Shown: positions 16,851 to 28,177 of the stretch, in pieces
Layout of the letters: each line of letters begins with the position of its first letter
How positions within the stretch are numbered: position 1 is the first letter of the stretch
From: Craspedostauros australis
Taxonomy: Eukaryota > Bacillariophyta > Bacillariophyceae > Mastogloiales > Achnanthaceae
Length of the DNA stretch: 64,000 nucleotides
Direction: 5' to 3'
Assembly (NCBI GenBank): GCA_026770025.1
Contig: JAMXDE010000016.1
Span: 186,001-250,000, forward strand
Notes under the pieces: generated by a model
The model's database searches: none
Seen by the model: the letters and a program-made list of their open reading frames with translations, nothing else
What the model was told of the DNA's origin: nothing
Position numbers and translations under genes: made by a program

Positions 16851-19078
16851 ATCAAAACAATATAATACCTTACATTCAATGACACCGAGGAGTCAACCAG
16901 ACTACACAGCCCATGTTCCGACTCTTGGATGCTCTTCTTGTATGACCACAAACACCAGTACAACCACAAGAGCACTCAAAGCAATAGCAGAGACTTTATT
17001 GGCCACACATGAAGACAGAGCATGTATCGTTGTTGGGACGCAATCATGAATGTCCCACGCATCACACCACCTTTCTGCGCCAACCGGCGCTATTTCCAAC
17101 ACTGAAGCGAAGCATGAAGCTCGCAAAAAGAGCGCTCTGTATGCCAAAGAACATGTTTGCTGGCACTTTCATGGAATCTGACATGGCCTCTCTGACACCA
17201 AGGGTGGCGATACAGTGTTGTGGTGTGCGCAGAAGAAAGGCAATGCCACGATGGTGTTGGCACTGCTCGCATCGAGGTTGGCTTATCATGCCTCGGTGAA
17301 AAACAGTGAAACAGAGCCACACTTCCGAAACGTCAGCGGAAGCCAAGCCGACGACGAAACGACAACGGTATGTGATAAACGTATTTCATTTGACTTGCCA
17401 TGCCATCCATTACTGCCCATCGTCAGATCCCTCCATTATGCTCTATTCTACGCTTCAAGTCATCGCTCCGTGTTCGTTTGCAGCACATTGATTAGTTCGT
17501 GCACAGGGGAGATACTCGCGTCGCGGATGTGGAAAAAATGGAAGTTCCGTGGCGTGCACAATGGCACTTGTATGCAGGCGTCGCCCCACACGATGGCATC
17601 TCGATTTTCTGCCGAAGACGTCACCTGCCGCGTCCGTCTCTTCTTTATGGCACCGGATTCCCAACCTGCCATCGGCCCTGGCATCAACTTCATCTGTGGC
17701 TGTTGCGTAATGATGCACAGCAGCTTCGTTGGTGCCGACTCAGTTCGCGCAGGACCTGATGTTGCGAAGCGCTGCGCCGTGTGTCGTCGCCAGCATTGGT
17801 TCCGCCACGTCGCCGCGCAGGATACTGCGATCCTCCAAGTCTTTCGCTGCCCTGCATGATGTCAAGTTTGCGACTTCTGCGTGATACTAGCGCGATGTGT
17901 TTGCGTGTATGCCTTCCGATAGCAGCGCGCATCCCCGGCAGTCTCACATCGTACTCCTGTACCAAGTCTCAATCGTTGTGATCGTATGGAAGTTCGATCA
18001 GAGCATCAGGCGGGCGTTTTGCTGCGGCAACTAGCCATGGAAGGTTCCATGCAGTAGCTCGTAGTCACGGAGAAAGTGGAGTGCCTTCACGCAATCCTTC
18101 TTGGACGTTGATGCCTCATCATGTCGTCCCATTGTTTGTTTTCATGGTGCGAAGGGATGCGATGCAGAGCGGCCACGAACAGGATGATAAAGAGGTATGT
18201 GTGTTCGTCCTCTGCTTTTCCGTCACGGCGCCGCACTTCCTCGTCTTGTCTCATTGCTTTGCAAGCCTCACGTTGGGTATCATGTCTGATCATTGGGGAG
18301 GGTCATCATCGCGGTTGTCGAACGGAGTTGCGATTGAACAGAAGTGATGATGGTGTCTGTGAGAGTGTGTTCGTGTGTGTCATCGTGGACAACTACTACT
18401 CCATGGTTGCTCAACCACAACAAATTCAAGCGTGTCATTCAACAACAATGAGTTTCGACTCGATCGACTCTTTTTTGGCGCGAGTTTGATGTTCGTGTCC
18501 GTTCGTGGCATCAACAAAAAGAACAAGAAGGATGGCGACAGAACATCCAATTGCGGATGGCAAGGAACACGCCACGATCCGTGTTGACTCTCATTCTTTG
18601 CGTGATTCCATGCTGGCAGGATCCTCGATCGTCTCCACGTTCCAATAATGATGATACGCACAATGATGACTTCCGACACCTTCGGCCACGATCAACTTTC
18701 TCCTTCTGTGGCTGGCCACGGCCACGGCCAATACCACGCACACGCTCAAGCCAAGGTCTAAGACTACGTTCACGCCCAAGCCAAAACTGATGGGGACAAT
18801 CACAGAACGGCATCGCGGCAACAAAGTGAAATGTGAAATGAAAACATCGTGAAACAACAATCAACACAATGCCATACACGCTGGGTGAAACGGAGCACGG
18901 GATGCCACCACCAACGACAATGAAACAGGCCACCAGCCTCATAAAAGCAGACAGAGACCCGATCAAGGGACTATGACCACACAAGCAATCAAGCAATCAT
19001 TCGATCACATCGAAAAAGCCCGCCGCATTGGCCTGATCTGAACAATAAATCATCCCTTTTCGAAACAACAGCTCCGTT
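16851..19078. other. Gene-poor stretch before the ankyrin gene
   Basis: No confident gene. The plus strand has frames at 17009-17299 and 17215-17859, and the minus strand frames around 17690-18110. They overlap in register and are broken by stops. The minus frame around 17940-18110 reads like decayed coding sequence (fragments KKDCVKALHFLRDYELLHG and YDVRLPGMRAAIGRH in different frames). This may be an old mobile-element or gene relic. The last about 90 bp should be the ankyrin gene 5' region. Confidence 0.35.
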
Positions 19079-21154
19079 ATGGTCGTCATCCTTCCACGAC
19101 TTTTGGTCAAGCTTGCTTCCACAACAGGCATCCGCAACCTCCGGGCTTCGTCAACACAGACCGCAAAATGGTCGTCTCTTATTCCGTTCAAGTTGACTCC
19201 TGGTGATGCACCCCCGCCAACCATCACCAACCAGGATCTCCTTCGCGCCGCAGACCAAGGAGATGTGGACACCCTCACCGCATGGAAGACAGCATTTCCA
19301 CAAACCTCCATCGACACGATCAAGGACGACCGTGACAAGACTCCACTCCACCTCGCATGCTCCAACGGCCAGCTTGAAACGATCAAACAGTTGATGGAGT
19401 CATGCGGAGCGGACGTCAATGCCCAATCCATGGATGGAGAGACTGCGCTACACTATGCATGCGCACAGGGCAACCTCGATGTCGTAGAATACCTGGCTGG
19501 GTCGCATGCTGCAAATGTCAACCTCCAGGACAACTTCGGCAAGGTGGCACTCCACGACGCATGTACCGAGGGGCATACAGCCATCGTGAAGACTCTGATC
19601 GAGTCATATTCTGCAAGCGCTCTCGTGCAAGATGAGAAGGGTGAGAATGCCCTCCATGCCGCGTGTCTTCATGGACACTTGGATGTTGTGGAGTACCTCG
19701 TTGGATCATGTGGAGTGGAAATCAATGCGCAAGATGATTTCGGTAACACTGCGATCCACAATGCGTGTCTGAAGGGTCATCTTGATATCTTGAAGTATGT
19801 GATGGAGGCTCGTACTGTGGCCATCGACGTCCAGAACAATGACGGCGATACCGCGCTTCATGTTGCTTACAGAAATGGGCATATGGATGTTGCAGAGTAT
19901 CTGGTGAAGTCGTGCAAGGCAGATGTTCATGTTGAGAATGAAGCTGGCGGCACGGCTCTTCAGTCTGCATATTCCAAAGGTCATCTGGATGTTGTGAGAT
20001 GGTTGGTGGAGTCAGGTCAGGTGGACATCAATGCCAAAGACGAGAATGGCGACACTTTGCTTCACTGTGCAAGTGCTGGGGGCCACCTGGATGTGGTGAA
20101 GCATTTGGTGGGCTCAGGCAAAGCCATCATCGATGTCAGCGCCGAGAACAGGGCTGGCAACACTGCACTCCATCTCGCAAGTGGCGATGGCCACCTCGAT
20201 ATTGTGAAGCGGCTGGTTGAATCCGGCAAGGCCGATATCAACGCTGAGAACAACAGCCGTGAGACTCCAATCTTCAAGGCATGTCGCAACAGCCACTTCG
20301 ACGTTGTCGAGTATCTCATCGGAACACCAAGCATACATCCAAACTTCCGACACAAGGATGGCAACACCGTGCTCCATCTCGCAAGTGGCGATGGCCATCT
20401 CGATGTTGTGAAGGTGCTGGTTGAATTCGGCAAGGCCGATATCAACGCTGAGAACAACAACCGTGAGACTCCAATCTTCAAGGCATGTCGCAACAGCCAC
20501 TTCGACGTTGTCGAGTATCTCATCGGAACACCAAGCATACATCCAAACTTCCGACATACGGATGGCAACACCGTGCTCCATCTCGCAAGTGGCGATGGCC
20601 ACCTCGATATTGTGAAGCGGCTGGTTGAATCCGGCAAGGCCGATATCAACGCTGAGAACAACAACCGTGAGACTCCAATCTTCAAGGCATATCGCAACAG
20701 CCACTTCGACATTGTCAAGTATCTGGTCGCAGCACCAAATGTCGATTTGGACTTACGAAACTGGGATTGTCAATCGATACTCCATCGCGCAAGCGCTAAT
20801 GGCAATCTCGACGTTGTGAAGTTGTTGGTTGAAGAAGGCAAGATCGATATCCACACCAAAACCAGCAAATTTGGCAACACTGCACTGCACTTAGCGTGCT
20901 TGAATGGTAGATTGGAGGTCGTGAAGTATTTGGTGAAAGTCTGCAACGCAGAAATCAACATTCAAGACAAGAATGGCAGAACTGCACTTAGGAAGGCAAG
21001 TTGGAATGGTAAATTGGAGGTGGTCAAGTACTTGGTAGAATCGTGCAACGCAGACATCAGCATCATTGGTTTCGATGGCGGCACTGCATTGGATATTGCG
21101 AGAAAACGGGACCGCACTGATGTTGTCGACTACTTGACCGCTCTTGTGTGCTGA
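19079..21154 (+). CDS. Ankyrin-repeat protein
   Basis: Single exon, 691 aa. After a basic, hydroxylated N-terminus (residues 1-35, MVVILPRLLVKLASTT, possibly a mitochondrial-type presequence), about nineteen ankyrin repeats fill residues 55-690. Each has the pattern G(N/D)TALH-A...GH(L/M)DVVKYLVESG-ADIN. No other domain is present, so it is probably a protein-interaction scaffold. Several repeats are almost identical because of a 204-bp DNA duplication (see repeat). Partner and pathway are unknown. Confidence 0.9.
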   Translation: MVVILPRLLVKLASTTGIRNLRASSTQTAKWSSLIPFKLTPGDAPPPTITNQDLLRAADQGDVDTLTAWKTAFPQTSIDTIKDDRDKTPLHLACSNGQLETIKQLMESCGADVNAQSMDGETALHYACAQGNLDVVEYLAGSHAANVNLQDNFGKVALHDACTEGHTAIVKTLIESYSASALVQDEKGENALHAACLHGHLDVVEYLVGSCGVEINAQDDFGNTAIHNACLKGHLDILKYVMEARTVAIDVQNNDGDTALHVAYRNGHMDVAEYLVKSCKADVHVENEAGGTALQSAYSKGHLDVVRWLVESGQVDINAKDENGDTLLHCASAGGHLDVVKHLVGSGKAIIDVSAENRAGNTALHLASGDGHLDIVKRLVESGKADINAENNSRETPIFKACRNSHFDVVEYLIGTPSIHPNFRHKDGNTVLHLASGDGHLDVVKVLVEFGKADINAENNNRETPIFKACRNSHFDVVEYLIGTPSIHPNFRHTDGNTVLHLASGDGHLDIVKRLVESGKADINAENNNRETPIFKAYRNSHFDIVKYLVAAPNVDLDLRNWDCQSILHRASANGNLDVVKLLVEEGKIDIHTKTSKFGNTALHLACLNGRLEVVKYLVKVCNAEINIQDKNGRTALRKASWNGKLEVVKYLVESCNADISIIGFDGGTALDIARKRDRTDVVDYLTALVC
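20158..20729 (+). repeat. 204-bp tandem duplication inside the ankyrin gene
   Basis: Period 204 bp, coding for two ankyrin repeats (68 aa). Copies begin near 20158, 20362 and 20566 (last partial). Copies differ at only a few positions, for example SRETP versus NRETP and KDGNT versus TDGNT. This suggests recent unequal exchange or gene conversion. Confidence 0.9.
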
Positions 21155-21597
21155 GAGCATCGCTGTAAATTGGACAAGAATAAGCCAACCACCCGTCATA
21201 GTAGTCTCCCTTAGCAGCTATCAAGTGCTCAACATCCATCGTTGACGTAAATCAGTCGTTGGTTTCTATTGTTCAGTGAACACCAATTATTGTACAATGA
21301 GAAGATGGTGTGCTGTTCTGTGCTCAACGTCGCTTCGTGTTGCAAGGTCATGGTACCTCTGTCTAGCCCATGTGTTGTAATATATTGTGTTGTGCTGTAG
21401 CAGGTATATGTACGGCATGCGATTGTGCTTTGCCTTTCTTGGAAGCAAGCGGCGCCATGGTCTGAGATTCACGATGCATCTCAGAGATACCATTGGCGCC
21501 GTGATGCGGGTGATGCGTTCATCCGCATGTTGATGTGTGTTGTTGTGTTGTTGTGGCGCATTGTGGTGGCACCTCAACGCACCAAGTGGCAACGTGC
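21155..21597. other. Intergenic, ankyrin gene to silicon-transporter relic
   Basis: No supported gene. A frame at 21425-21799 on the plus strand is antisense to the transporter relic. Confidence 0.4.
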
Positions 21598-23040
21598 TTA
21601 CTTCTGCATGCCCATCTCCTCATCAGTGTCAGCCTCGGAGCTCTGGTTCTCCTCGTCCTGGTTCAGCTTGTTCATGGCAGCAGTCTCCATGCGAAGGGCA
21701 GACTCGAAGATGTGGGCATCCTCCTCGTTGCTGCACGAGTTGATCTTCTCGCGGAGTCCCTCGATGTTCGACTGGATGCGCTCGCGACGGACGGCGTAAG
21801 ACTCTTTCTGTGTGGCGAGGGCCTTCTGGAGCTCCAGATACTCGCGTGGGATGGCGGTGGAACCGGCCTCGTTGACAAGGACGTTGGTTCCAAGGTGCAG
21901 GTTGCGGTTGCTCTGGTGGTCTGGCTTCATGCCGGCGGCACGCTCCTCTGGGGTGCCAATGTACACCTCATCGAGCTGGAAGCCAGAGACAGCCTTGTGG
22001 ACGGAAGCGAGAACTCAGGCTCCTGAGCAGATTCCGGTGGCTTCCAACAACAGACAGAACTGGAGGAAGATGTAGACGATTGGGTTGGAAAGGAAGGCGA
22101 TTGGGAAGACGGATGCAACCAGCTGCCATGTGATGGAGGCGATGATGGTGGTGATTAGGGCTCCGAGAAGTCCGGTGCTGAAGAATTCCTGGGTGCTGTC
22201 GGAGACTCTGAAGATGTTCTTGCCAGTTCCGACCTCGACATCGAGAGTGGTGACACGGGCGATAATGAAGAAGCACATGGTCACGCAGATCTGACGTCCA
22301 ATCTTGAATCCTGGAAGGTTGCGTCCGTCACCGCGGAAGAGGAGGTCGCAGGTCTTGCGGGCCATTGGGTGGTGTCCACGATCCTCCTTTGGAAACTTGG
22401 CGACGGCGAAGAAGGCGATCTACATACCCTCAAGCATACCAACGATGGACATGAAGAGGAAGAAGAGTATGACTGCGACTCCGTTTGGCACTCTGGCCCA
22501 CATGGTGGTCTTTCCATCGAACAGGGCGACCAGGGTGACGGCCATAGCGTAGCACAGGATGGCGAGGGAGATGAGGATGCGGCCCCAGAAGAAGAGGTTC
22601 TGGGCACCGTCGCGTGGTGGTTCCTTGGACTCGATTTCCTTGCCGGGGGCCCACACGAAGAACATCTGGACGAGGTAGCACGAGTGCAGAAGTCCGGAGA
22701 ACTCGATGGCGAGGGCGACGTAGAGGGTGAAGACGGCGAAGAAGTTGTTGCTGTAGTCAAGCATGCAGAGGGAGGCGTTGACTTGGGTGGGATTCGACGC
22801 AGAGGTTGCGGTCGACTGGTGGGAGACCGGCGAGGGAACCCTGTTCTCCCTCCACCATGTTGAGCCAGATGAGGGCAGCGATCATGATGACGACGGCGAC
22901 CACTGGGTGGACCTCGGACGAGACCTTGGTCTGCTCATTGAAGATGAGTCCGCAGACGATGGTGATCGAGAAGATGAGGAGTCCAGTGGAGTACACCGAC
23001 TTGACGAGCTGAATGGGATCCGTGGTTACTTGTCTGTTTG
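21598..23040 (-). pseudogene. Silicic-acid (silicon) transporter pseudogene
   Basis: Reads on the minus strand as a diatom silicon transporter (SIT), the plasma-membrane family that imports silicic acid for frustule formation. Family landmarks: EGEQ near 22850 (EGxQ motif), CMLDY near 22760, KIGRQ near 22295 (GRQ motif), several hydrophobic helices, and a C-terminal coiled-coil tail ending at 21598. Breaks: (1) near 22785 the frame shifts, and ESHPS runs directly into QVNASLCMLDY, so a segment between these landmarks is missing; (2) TAG at 22420-22422 falls where EGMQ would be read (EGM then stop), fitting CAG to TAG; (3) TGA at 22015-22017 follows SGA, fitting TGG to TGA. After the deletion the frame is otherwise continuous from 22764 to 21598. 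No ATG lies in the open frame upstream of GTG 22996. Loss of function is inferred. Confidence 0.88.
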
Positions 23041-24127
23041 TTGCTGTTGCTCTGGTTGCCGCTTCTTGTTGCTGTGATGTGTTGCAGAACTTGCAATGAT
23101 TGATATTGTGAGTGATGCAATGTCAGGTTCGGCGGATGCCGCGGAGGCATTTGTGGTTGTGCGTGATCGTACGTGGTCGTATGCAGTTGCATATGATGGT
23201 TGTGTTTGTTCTCACGATTTCCTGTTCGATTGTTGGCTTGGTTTGTTGTTGTTTTCTCGTGAAAGATGAGCGAAAGACAGTCCATGAAATTCGCCGTGAT
23301 GACTGGCGCACGCGACATATTGTTTGAATGATGAGTGACAATGTCTGAATTACGTGAAATGATCATGTTAATGCCAACGAGGACTGGCGTGACATTTGTT
23401 TCGTGATGGGGCAACGCAGTGGTTTCGAAAATAACTGACACGAAGCCATCGCATCGGTATGGAATTCATAAGAGTGTTCCAGATTCAACTTCTATCATTC
23501 TATCCCTCCGATGTGTCTTGCCATTTTGTTGTTGAAGCAGACAATTCATGACCAAGGACAAGAATCTAAATTCGACACGTCCAACAACAGACATGTTTGT
23601 GACGTCGATGGGACCTGCATTCGCACGTCTGCAACACTGCGTCACAATCTGTTCACGTTCAAAAGTGCGGCTTGCTGTCGCTCGGACTCCCCACTGAAAC
23701 AGACATCCCCAAGGATAACGAGACAACAATGATGTTGTCCTTGTCGTAGTCCCGTGTTGACGTCACTTGAAACAGATAACGCCCAAGCGGGCGTTTTCTC
23801 ATCCATGAGCGACATCCCAAGGAGATGCACAAAAGGCACCAAGATCAACATCGAATGATGTCTCTGATTGTTGCGAATCCATCCGACGCAGCCAGGCACC
23901 TCCAGGTGCAGGCGTGGGAGCAACAACAACAGATCAACGGCGACACTACCATCCGCACCGACGAGATTGAAGGCGACCACGATTACGGTGGCAACAAATA
24001 GCACACAACACCCATCGCATGACATCTCACCGGCCTTCGAGCTTCTCTGCAGCATCTTCGTGGCACCATCCGAATCTATTTGTTGCTCAGCATCCATCTT
24101 TACGCTGGACTCCACAAGCACAGCAGG
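23041..24127. other. Intergenic, transporter relic to STAND ATPase
   Basis: No supported gene. It includes whatever remains of the transporter 5' region and the presumed promoter of the ATPase gene. Minus frames at 23466-23729 and 23642-24133 lack recognisable features. Confidence 0.4.
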
Positions 24128-27100
24128 ATGCAATCTCCCTCCGCTCCTGCCGCCACTTTCGCTTCAGACACAATGCAAGACACAATGCAAGGCACTCAGC
24201 CATCGCCCAAACACCAATGCAACAGAACATCACTTCGCCTGCACGACAACGTTTTGACGTCAGGCAATGAGTTCTACGACGATGGATACAACGAGACCGA
24301 GCTTGAGACAGAAGTGCCAAACGGTCTCTTCTCAAATATCGGCGGCAGCAATGGCGAAGCGGACAGCGATAGCATCCACCAATTCTTTGGACGCGAGAAT
24401 GAGTTGAAACAATTGCATCGTGCATTCGATCGGATGATGCGTCATTCCAAGTCCAGCAAGCCAACCAGAAAGACGAAGGGAACTGCCCAGCACCCTTCAT
24501 CGGATGCCATCCCTACATCTGGATCATCTGCGGATGCGTCCTCTAGTCGACCCTTCGTCCCAGCTGCGTTCGTTTGGGGTACCAGCGGCGCAGGCAAGTC
24601 GAAGCTCGTGGATATCTTCTGCAACCAGTTGCTCGATCCCGGTCGCAACACAAGTAAGAGCAACGGCATCCGTGTGCTCAAGGGGAAATTTCAGGAGCAT
24701 CAGCAAGGCAACCCGTTCTCAGCCATCACTCAGGCGTTGTCCGATTGGTGCAAGCAGCTGACTTCCTCACATGTGCAATTGGCACCAATCAGGGAGACTG
24801 GCAGCGAAGCGACGGCTGAAGCAACAACTGACGATGACACAGATGCAAACGTCGATGCAGATACAGATAAAGATGGTCATCCAAAGCCAGTATCAAATCA
24901 CAGTGACGGTGACGATGATGAGGAGACGGACAGGCATCGCCGCCATCATATTACGAGCCAATCATCAGAGCTGCATCGGCTTCGATCCATTGTCGCGTCG
25001 AGCAATCTCACAATGCAGCAGAAGGACGTCCTTGTCGCGCTCGTGCCAGCACTATCCATTCTCTTCAGCGAAGACGGGAGTTGCGACGCATCCATCACTT
25101 CCACAACTGCACAGCAGTCTCAGCCTCAGCCTCCACAAATCCCATTGACCGAGACATCGTGGAACCGGTTCCAGTACGCTTTCATTCAATTCTTGTCCCT
25201 TATCTCATCAAGGCGCCATCCCGTGGTGATGGTACTAGATGATCTGCAATGGGCGTCGCAAGAGTGCATGGACATCATCTCCACTGCCATGTATCAACCT
25301 CACTTCCTGTGGATTGGCACGATCCGGCAAGAGATCGATCCGCAGTCTCCCAACAAGCTCATGGAATTCAATGGAGATCTCCCCCTCATGCAGTTCCTCG
25401 ACGATTTGCAAACGCAATACGCGGAATCACCCTCCAATCCAACGAAGACACCCTACATCGACATCCATCTGAAAAACTTCAGTCAACAGGAGCTACACGA
25501 GTGGGTGTCGCAATTGTTCGACCAGGAGGATGACGTTGTAGATGAGGTGGTCGAGCTTCTGCACAACCAGACCGACGGCAACATCTTCCACACGATACAG
25601 CTCCTGCAAGACATGGAACGCACGAAGGCCTTGACGTACAGCCGCATCACGTTCCAGTGGGAGCTTGATTCCTCCCTGATCAGTTTCAATCAGCCCAGCC
25701 ACAACAACAGTGGCAATCGCAGTTGCAACGATGCCATGAGTGGTAGCGGCCATGTGGCAACAAACAACGTGATCAAGCTCATTTCATCCAAGCTGCGATC
25801 TCTGCCTGTTCCTTTGCAGAAGGCCCTCATACTGGCATCGTACATTCGATCCTCGTTTGAGCTGGACCCTCTGCAGGCGGTCTGGGACTACGAAGAGCAA
25901 AACAATCCCACAGGAGGTGACATTCTTCCCGCTCCAGCTCATAGCTCTGAACACGAAACAAGTACGCCACTTGCGGAGTGGCTGGAACAGGCTGTTCTGG
26001 AGGGCCTTCTCGCGAACTCCATCGGTGGTGCAAGCTACCGCTTCGCACACGACCGCATCCAACAGACAGCACGCAATCTCGTGCCGTTCGGAGAGGTTCG
26101 AACCAAGCTCCGTCTGCGAATTGGCCAGTGCTTGTGGGAGTTCTGCACAAGGAGTGATGAAGCAAACAAAGCTAGAGATCAGGGAAATGACGGCAGCATT
26201 TTCTTCATCGCAGCCGATCACCTCAACTGCGCCCCAACCAAGGACCACCTCGCAGCGGCTCGACGAAATCTTCGGGTTGGCGAGCACGCGCTCCAAATCG
26301 CCGCATTGGTGCCTGCTGCAATGTATCTCCAACTTGCAAGCACTGCATTGCGCAAGGTGAGAGGTGACGCATGGCAGGAACACTACGACTTGATGATTCG
26401 GTTAGTGCGCGCACGGTGCGGTGTCGAGCTCACGCTAAATCGATTCGACTTGGGGTATTCGCTGGGAAACGAGCTGCTGAATCATGCTCGATCCATCCAC
26501 GACAAGATGCTTACGTATATTGCGATGGCCAATGCCCTTGGCAAACAAAATGAGCACACAAAGGGCTTGCAGTTGGCTCAACAAGGTGCCGAGATGTGTG
26601 ACAAGTACCCGAAGCGATGGTTCCTGTTGCATGCTGTGCCACAGCTCCTTTCTGCCAGAGCGTACTTGAAGAGAACAACTACGGAGCAATTTTTTGACCA
26701 GAATCCCATCACAACCAATCCGCAGACGTTGCTCTCGATGGATTTAATGCAAGAGATCACCATCAGAGCGTACTCATGCCAAGACATCCTATCATGGATG
26801 CTGACGACCGTGAGACTGATCCAAATCACGAGGAGGGATGGCATCTGCGAGTACTCTGCTGGTGCTTTGAATGGCTTTGCTGTCGCCCAGACAAGATGGG
26901 GCGAGTTTGCGGACGCTTGCAAATCTGCCAAGCTTGCGAAGGAGATCATTCGTAGGGTGGGCAGTGGTACGAAGACGGAGGGGTGGATCTATTACACCGT
27001 GGCGCTCTACGTCGATTCGTTCTACAAACCATGGCATGAAGTAACATGCGACTTCCAGCATGCTTACAAGTCAGCCATGGCAGTTGGTGACGTTGAGCTC

Positions 27101-28177
27101 AGTGTGATGGCACAAAATACCAGTCTCTTCTTCTCATTCTTCCACGGACGTCCTCTGACCGAAGTGGTGCCAAACGCTCTCTCTCACCTCGAGCAGATGA
27201 GGATGTACAAGATTGATGCATTCAAGGGTGTGGTGACTGAAATGTTGACTCTGTACCAAAACATGCAAGGCACAATGGAGTTGGATTGGAAGGCACTCAT
27301 GGATGTTGGCAAGTATGAACATGCTGGTCCATTTGAGCGGGACCCTGCTTATTGGGGACGACTCCACCTTGCGGTGTACTTCGGAAAGTTCAAACACGCA
27401 GAGAAGTTGAACCATCTGCTCATGACGCACGGCACTGGTGAAAGCAACTTTGCCTTTGTCACATCCGTTGCCATTCTCAGCGGCGTCATGGCCTCTCACC
27501 GATACCGACAAACGAAGAAGCGCAAATACCTCAAGATGCTGCGACAGCGAAAGCAGCAGCTGAAATACATCTGTGATAACCAAGGAACTTGCGCACTCCA
27601 TCGGTACTTGATTCTACGTGCTGAGTGGAAAGCAATCAAGGCAGGAAACGCGAAGCCCGCCCTCGTGGGATCCTTCTACAATGACGCCATCAAGCAAGCA
27701 CAAGAAGGAGACCACCTCCACGAAGCAGGACTCGCGTGTGAGCTGGCAGGCAAACACATGCTGAGGAGCTGCAACCAAGACGACCCTCGCATCAGCAACT
27801 ATTTCACTCAGGCATTGGGATTCTACGAAAGGTGGGGCGCTATTCCCAAATGCAAGCTCTTCCGTGAAGCCTACAGCGATTACATTGATGAAGATCGCGT
27901 GCGCGAGATGAAGATGCAAGGCAGCCTGGCAGATCAAATCAAATCTCTCACCTTTTCGCAAGAACATCATGGCAGGTCGAGCGTCAACCAAGATCTGACG
28001 TCGGAGCGAACCCCAAGCAATGCACTAATCCATTCTGGTCCGGATGTAGATTCGATGGGGCAAGCGGGCGACTCTCGAACAGTTACATCATCGAAGGACG
28101 GCAAAATGGGCAGCAAAGGCGATATGGAAAGTGGCAGGGACCACAGCGGTTCGATATTGACAGATACGGACTTGTAA
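24128..28177 (+). CDS. STAND-type ATPase (predicted ATPase module with helical repeats)
   Basis: Single exon, 1349 aa from the first ATG in frame. After FFGRENELKQL (the entry of AAA_16/Orc1-like ATPases), a Walker A loop GTSGAGKS lies at about 151-158 and Walker B VVMVLDDLQWAS at about 365-376. A sensor/arginine region (IGTIRQE) follows. An acidic low-complexity insert sits between A and B. The C-terminal about 700 residues are TPR-like helices of the type that follows the ATPase in bacterial proteins joining a Ser/Thr kinase, ATPase, GAF and histidine kinase; LACELAGKHML and the closing FYERWGAIPKCKLF fit that family. Neither a kinase nor a histidine-kinase module is present here. A signalling or scaffold role is inferred. 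The Ser/Gly-rich tail is probably disordered. Confidence 0.8.
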   Translation: MQSPSAPAATFASDTMQDTMQGTQPSPKHQCNRTSLRLHDNVLTSGNEFYDDGYNETELETEVPNGLFSNIGGSNGEADSDSIHQFFGRENELKQLHRAFDRMMRHSKSSKPTRKTKGTAQHPSSDAIPTSGSSADASSSRPFVPAAFVWGTSGAGKSKLVDIFCNQLLDPGRNTSKSNGIRVLKGKFQEHQQGNPFSAITQALSDWCKQLTSSHVQLAPIRETGSEATAEATTDDDTDANVDADTDKDGHPKPVSNHSDGDDDEETDRHRRHHITSQSSELHRLRSIVASSNLTMQQKDVLVALVPALSILFSEDGSCDASITSTTAQQSQPQPPQIPLTETSWNRFQYAFIQFLSLISSRRHPVVMVLDDLQWASQECMDIISTAMYQPHFLWIGTIRQEIDPQSPNKLMEFNGDLPLMQFLDDLQTQYAESPSNPTKTPYIDIHLKNFSQQELHEWVSQLFDQEDDVVDEVVELLHNQTDGNIFHTIQLLQDMERTKALTYSRITFQWELDSSLISFNQPSHNNSGNRSCNDAMSGSGHVATNNVIKLISSKLRSLPVPLQKALILASYIRSSFELDPLQAVWDYEEQNNPTGGDILPAPAHSSEHETSTPLAEWLEQAVLEGLLANSIGGASYRFAHDRIQQTARNLVPFGEVRTKLRLRIGQCLWEFCTRSDEANKARDQGNDGSIFFIAADHLNCAPTKDHLAAARRNLRVGEHALQIAALVPAAMYLQLASTALRKVRGDAWQEHYDLMIRLVRARCGVELTLNRFDLGYSLGNELLNHARSIHDKMLTYIAMANALGKQNEHTKGLQLAQQGAEMCDKYPKRWFLLHAVPQLLSARAYLKRTTTEQFFDQNPITTNPQTLLSMDLMQEITIRAYSCQDILSWMLTTVRLIQITRRDGICEYSAGALNGFAVAQTRWGEFADACKSAKLAKEIIRRVGSGTKTEGWIYYTVALYVDSFYKPWHEVTCDFQHAYKSAMAVGDVELSVMAQNTSLFFSFFHGRPLTEVVPNALSHLEQMRMYKIDAFKGVVTEMLTLYQNMQGTMELDWKALMDVGKYEHAGPFERDPAYWGRLHLAVYFGKFKHAEKLNHLLMTHGTGESNFAFVTSVAILSGVMASHRYRQTKKRKYLKMLRQRKQQLKYICDNQGTCALHRYLILRAEWKAIKAGNAKPALVGSFYNDAIKQAQEGDHLHEAGLACELAGKHMLRSCNQDDPRISNYFTQALGFYERWGAIPKCKLFREAYSDYIDEDRVREMKMQGSLADQIKSLTFSQEHHGRSSVNQDLTSERTPSNALIHSGPDVDSMGQAGDSRTVTSSKDGKMGSKGDMESGRDHSGSILTDTDL

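Follow-up and report, generated by a model that had tools for sequence, protein, structure and literature searches.

Silicic-acid transporters (SITs) belong to a gene family whose size varies widely between lineages, as can be gathered from the accessible portions of the published surveys. SIT numbers are typically three to five, with one to six in 37 Thalassiosirales genomes (PMC10700740), and other counts are three to eight in diatoms and one or two in Parmales (PMC10328945); a survey of 2026 covering both groups extends the range from two or three to more than 30 (PMC13403384). SIT duplication and loss have occurred repeatedly, mostly on a small scale and in a species-specific manner (PMC10700740). 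Copy number and turnover of these genes are thought to tune the uptake of silicon, a nutrient that can limit diatoms. The family described here resembles SIT1-2 and SIT3 of the Thalassiosirales in its PF03842 domain, its GXQ and CMLD motifs and this repeated gain and loss, but differs in scale, with 28 uninterrupted and many broken copies as opposed to the one to six SITs in that order (PMC10700740). Large SIT numbers in some genomes of the 2026 survey imply that the count alone is not new, although its homology criteria appear loose (SITs are credited even to Bacillus). In its accessible text no pseudogenes, segmental blocks, core/tail mosaics or names of the species with the highest counts were found (PMC13403384). 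Another close parallel is Synedra ulna, in which gene conversion has been suggested for the identical SIT genes SuSIT1 and SuSIT2; each of them, however, consists of three concatenated SIT units, and conversion was proposed from identity alone (PMC6114903), whereas the present genome contains single-unit SIT genes on many contigs and a mapped breakpoint between core and tail. In 2018 the authors of that study knew of no non-crossover conversion in diatom genomes, as far as its accessible text goes (PMC6114903). A mosaic, highly amplified SIT family is not described in the accessible portions of the literature searched (one library, without supplementary files).

The window, that is, the whole stretch of 64,000 nucleotides that was analysed, carries a SIT on its minus strand that had been called a pseudogene in a preliminary description, a call borne out by its profile matches, its lesions and its lapsed constraint (Table 1). 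A profile search of the whole genome recovered the gene as two PF03842 pieces with E values of 3.7e-160 and 1.5e-26 and bit scores of 537.5 and 98.1, against a curated cut-off of 26.8 (G000:C14:207637-208800 and 208784-209020). The minus strand of positions 20500-24500 was read directly, both gene pieces were translated, and lesions were defined by reference to uninterrupted copies of the same genome, 28 of them in one alignment and 22 of the main type in another. Four disabling lesions were found, namely the loss of the start codon, a frameshifting deletion and two nonsense codons. Of these, the preliminary description had named the last three and overlooked the first. Both stop codons, proposed as CAG to TAG and TGG to TGA, were confirmed by direct reading at the exact places given, and the junction of ESHP to QVNASL with a change of frame was likewise found; alignment with intact SITs sizes the segment missing there as a single gap of 227 bp, reference CDS 237-463, which is not a multiple of three and thus shifts the frame. 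At both ends of the deleted segment intact copies carry the 5-bp repeat CCCAA, and the deletion probably occurred by microhomology-mediated end joining or by slippage between the two repeats. As for the motifs described for SITs, CMLD and four GXQ (PMC6114903), these are present by eye in the main-type intact translations among those listed. The window copy retains CMLDY, the first GXQ in the form GEQ and the fourth, while the second (MGRQ) disappeared with the deletion and the third is broken by the TAG. The EGEQ by which the gene had been recognised as a SIT is indeed present, but it is a private change from the EGGQ found in 22/22 main-type intact copies. Judged by these features, the window copy is a decayed member of the family rather than a working SIT. 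An open frame runs antisense across it (22159-22863, plus strand), with similar antisense frames in the copies L034 and L038; such long frames opposite SIT coding sequence are probably a by-product of codon bias.

Table 1. Position of the SIT pseudogene, its lesions and the surrounding duplicated block in the window.
Feature	Position	Strand	Extent or basis
SIT (silicic-acid transporter) pseudogene	21598..23023	-	former start codon (now ACG) to original stop TAA; PF03842 matches and alignment with uninterrupted copies
Lost start codon, ACG	23021..23023	-	ATG in 22/22 main-type copies
Junction of 227-bp deletion	22783..22787	-	alignment with intact copies
Nonsense TAG	22420..22422	-	CAG (codon 277) in 22/22 main-type intact copies; third GXQ motif EGMQ
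Nonsense TGA	22015..22017	-	TGG (codon 412) in 22/22 main-type intact copies
Segmental duplication span	18780..27436		whole span with L013 (C37); with L017 (C37), 24927-27311 plus parts of 19-21.6 kb
Ankyrin-repeat gene, convergent neighbour, in duplicated block	19049..21154	+	Pfam Ank_2 E 1.1e-134; homologous to L011, L013 and L017 flanks
AAA_16 ATPase-domain open frame, upstream neighbour	24023..28177	+	Pfam AAA_16 E 1.6e-21; 24927-27436 within duplicated block

The family to which this copy belongs is large. The PF03842 search covered the whole genome (74.8 Mb, 90 contigs) and returned 88 rows, which were merged into one place when on the same strand and less than 2 kb apart, giving 56 SIT-matching places on 22 contigs, a lower bound since the search scores the best candidates only. 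Half of these places (28/56, on 13 contigs) are single uninterrupted matches over at least 480 of the 513 profile positions, and the remaining 28 comprise matches that are interrupted, partial, shifted or divergent, one of them (C20:715937-717493) having an open frame of 614 aa. For 13 of the latter 28 DNA was examined (the window copy, L034, L035, L037, L039 and L041-L048), and 14 are known from the profile-match table alone. In the open copies the SIT frame is free of introns. The main-type set of 22 copies used as a standard excludes L038 and L040, which are open but have internal deletions and a raised pN/pS, and L025, L028, L033 and L036 as divergent. Two divergent SITs on contig C2, L042 (C2:2644500-2647500) and L043 (C2:2623200-2626200), have frames of 597 and 516 aa, counted between stops. 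Their CMLDY motif is replaced by SMLDY or SMLDF, the N-termini are longer and the C-terminal tails short, and the profile match of L043 extends past a TAG. Haplotype duplication was considered as a source of the copy number and is unsupported by the two control families tried, which gave no sign of uncollapsed haplotypes: the Vps54 domain has one match in the genome and the RNA polymerase second-subunit domain four, one of these on C90, the contig that carries rbcL.

We consider it very probable that the window copy is a dead gene in a SIT family that has been greatly amplified, follows a birth-and-death mode of evolution and includes recombinant intact copies. A SIT pseudogene by itself is ordinary; what is unusual is an amplified and recombining SIT family with heavy gene death. 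The preliminary description had spoken of the loss of one SIT copy, which is right as to the loss and missed its context of 28 remaining uninterrupted copies and ten other copies with lesions. On the evidence of their flanks, multi-kilobase SIT blocks have been copied within and between contigs. As their codons indicate, the 22 main-type copies are open and strongly constrained, and others have lost start, frame or conserved residues and now evolve near-neutrally. The intact copies show in their alignments the signature of recombination, with a core and a C-terminal tail that differ in history. These mosaics would have been produced by ectopic gene conversion, or by unequal exchange, between copies, a process that may also help to keep the transport cores alike; copies might be kept because a large demand for silicon calls for a high SIT dosage, and those dropping out of the conversion or exchange pool would decay. 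With 28 uninterrupted SITs, 22 of which resemble one another closely under strong constraint, at least 11 broken ones, and recombinant cores and tails, the genome represents a natural experiment on gene dosage and on a possible role of gene conversion in shaping a transporter family.

Recombination among intact copies was examined in the 28 uninterrupted ones by separating the core (the first 448 codon columns) from the tail (from column 455). The core tree unites 24 copies with support 100, leaving L025, L028, L033 and L036 outside, and L033 groups with L028; the tail tree places L033 with L026 and L030 (100), and L025 with L014 (93) and L023 (95). When tail groups were forced on the core or core groups on the tail, all five clades, which had been chosen after the trees were seen, were rejected, with AU p values from 3e-4 to 3e-69 and log-likelihood losses of 44-166. 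The conflict can be followed in single copies. L026 differs from L009 at 37/1344 core and 105/273 tail nucleotides and from L033 at 116/1344 and 26/273, respectively, and its breakpoint falls at codons 445-450 (maximum chi-square 121.9, reached in 0/2000 shuffles). The two parts thus have conflicting trees and meet at a sharp breakpoint. L025 resembles L028 in its upstream flank, core and downstream flank and L014/L023 in its tail, a pattern compatible with an internal tract; the change may equally have gone in the other direction, with L028 as the altered copy. Taken together, these data make ectopic recombination among SIT copies well supported, and conversion is a likelier form of it than crossover.

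A more far-reaching reading, in which the SIT genes form a modular system, with cores kept uniform by ectopic conversion, tails that are exchanged and diversify beyond a fixed boundary, one transporter thus coming with many tails, and pseudogenes being both waste and sequence source, is improbable, if the least so of the alternatives weighed here. Were it true, the tails could serve different partners, targeting or regulation. General homogenisation of the cores does not emerge from the fourfold sites, at which the cores are less alike than both flanks in seven of 14 pairs with shared flanks, between them in two and more alike in the remaining five, and codon-usage constraint could explain part of these five. 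Somewhat less probable still, and on balance unlikely, is that the conflict between core and tail merely reflects faster change in the tail than in the core, recombination being absent: tails can diverge far more than cores, as in L032 and L009, which differ at 55/95 tail residues and at only 4/448 core residues, but a difference in rate cannot reverse relationships, as those of L033 are reversed, nor does it accommodate the rejection of the forced groupings.

The window copy itself lies within an 8.7-kb block made up of an ankyrin gene, the SIT and an AAA gene, to which two blocks on contig C37 are related. The main flank pieces shared with L013 and L017 are 80-85% identical, with a 259-bp piece by the start (68%) and a 731-bp piece in the ankyrin repeats (92%) as outliers; the part of the AAA_16 frame that belongs to the block is 80% identical over about 2.5 kb to the flanks of both copies. 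A downstream flank is also common to the window copy and L011 on C54, with 80-83% identity in its two longest pieces. Since flanks and neighbouring genes are common to these paralogues, the window copy must have arisen by segmental duplication at the DNA level. That the copies were made through mRNA, with the window copy dead on arrival, would agree with the intronless frames of the open copies and with the median of 406 pairs, in which shared sequence reaches only some 90 bp upstream of the coding region and is absent downstream of it. Such an origin is nonetheless very unlikely, because kilobase flanks and neighbouring genes are common to the window copy, L011, L013 and L017, and because nine of the 14 pairs compared (picked from the 406, mainly for the longest shared flanks) are 92-98% identical over 1 kb or more of the flank on one side. 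Retroposition as a general mechanism is ruled out for blocks with kilobase flanks and may apply to copies without these. Death on arrival is further contradicted by the reading frame of the window copy, which is more similar to its relatives than most of its flanks are, with 89-94% identity to main-type copies over the 3' part (and, in the first 239 bp, 94-96% to 12 listed copies) versus the main-flank values given above. After its block had been copied, the gene thus passed through a period of constraint or homogenisation, and its lesions and decay came later.

Loss of constraint was assessed from private codons, defined as core codons absent from all other main-type intact copies. In 371 codons compared, the window copy has 21 non-synonymous and 9 synonymous private codons (pN/pS 0.72), scattered along the core, the non-synonymous ones including the start and the two stops (18 without these three); the 22 main-type intact copies together have 6 and 89 (pN/pS 0.02; Fisher p 7e-12). 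The remaining frame, which had been described as intact, is open but, to judge from these 21 private non-synonymous changes, no longer constrained. Private non-synonymous change amounts to 21 in 850 sites, or 2.5%, as against a main-flank difference of about 15-20%, half of which is about 8-10%. Assuming equal neutral rates, this suggests that the window copy has been decaying for about the final third of the interval that followed the block duplication, and the recent loss proposed earlier holds only relative to that duplication. A residual role for the broken copy, whether through a truncated protein or through regulation of the intact copies by an antisense or competing RNA, could be read into its high identity to the intact copies and the long open frame on its opposite strand, but start, frame and two of the four GXQ motifs are gone and coding constraint has lapsed, which makes such a role slightly less probable even than retroposition. 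Least probable of all is that the gene is intact and its lesions are assembly or consensus errors: three of them are single-base differences, but random errors would hardly combine a clean deletion of 227 bp with a lost start and with private codon changes at a pN/pS so far from that of the 22 sister copies, and an artefact is unlikely.

The evidence for strong constraint is confined to the 22 main-type copies. In the divergent open copies L025, L028, L033 and L036, private pN/pS is 0.40-0.56 versus the main type, a between-group figure that is not taken as decay. L038 (C42:233300-236400; pN/pS 0.93) and L040 (C9:433400-436400; 0.48) have open frames with internal in-frame deletions and are probably dead or dying. 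Copies of this last type would escape a search for stops alone. Ten further SIT copies were read and each has a lesion, so that at least eleven are broken including the window copy; L045, with many single-base alignment gaps, and L048, which aligns poorly (pN/pS 2.3), were not used for claims on selection. Lesions recur between copies on different contigs, and their combinations are not nested: a 2-bp GT insertion at CDS 27 is common to L037 and L047, a 39-bp deletion at CDS 149 to L038 and L041, a 1-bp deletion at CDS 303 to L041 and L047, and a TGA at codon 200 to L034, L037 and L039. Such mosaic combinations among dead copies fit the idea that lesions, too, pass between copies, and are suggestive of copying between pseudogenes. 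As proof of conversion the recurring lesions do not serve, given that slippage in short repeats could have produced the GT insertion and the 39-bp deletion more than once, and that TGG to TGA at codon 200 is a single transition. Two broken SITs 14.8 kb apart (G000:C10:625480-627840 and C10:640294-642654) have identical scores and layout, and are apparently a pseudogene duplicated in tandem.

The host genome is likely that of a diatom, as the preliminary description had assumed, rather than of a closely related non-diatom ochrophyte. This is supported by the presence of PF03842 genes, by 61 profile matches for the chlorophyll-binding family in the genome, by one fucoxanthin-chlorophyll-like protein and by rbcL. 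The best PDB matches of rbcL are the Rubisco chains 7yk5, 5mz2 and 5n9z, which we take to be from diatoms, and those of one chlorophyll-binding protein are fucoxanthin-chlorophyll proteins, presumably also from diatoms; another chlorophyll-binding protein had no PDB match at 1e-60 and matched mixed light-harvesting chains at weaker scores. Chlorophyll-binding genes are clustered at C2:2566528-2578082 and C2:2918273-2950245 (G000), with eight matches, seven of which have near-equal scores. Recent amplification may thus extend beyond the SITs, for example to these genes.
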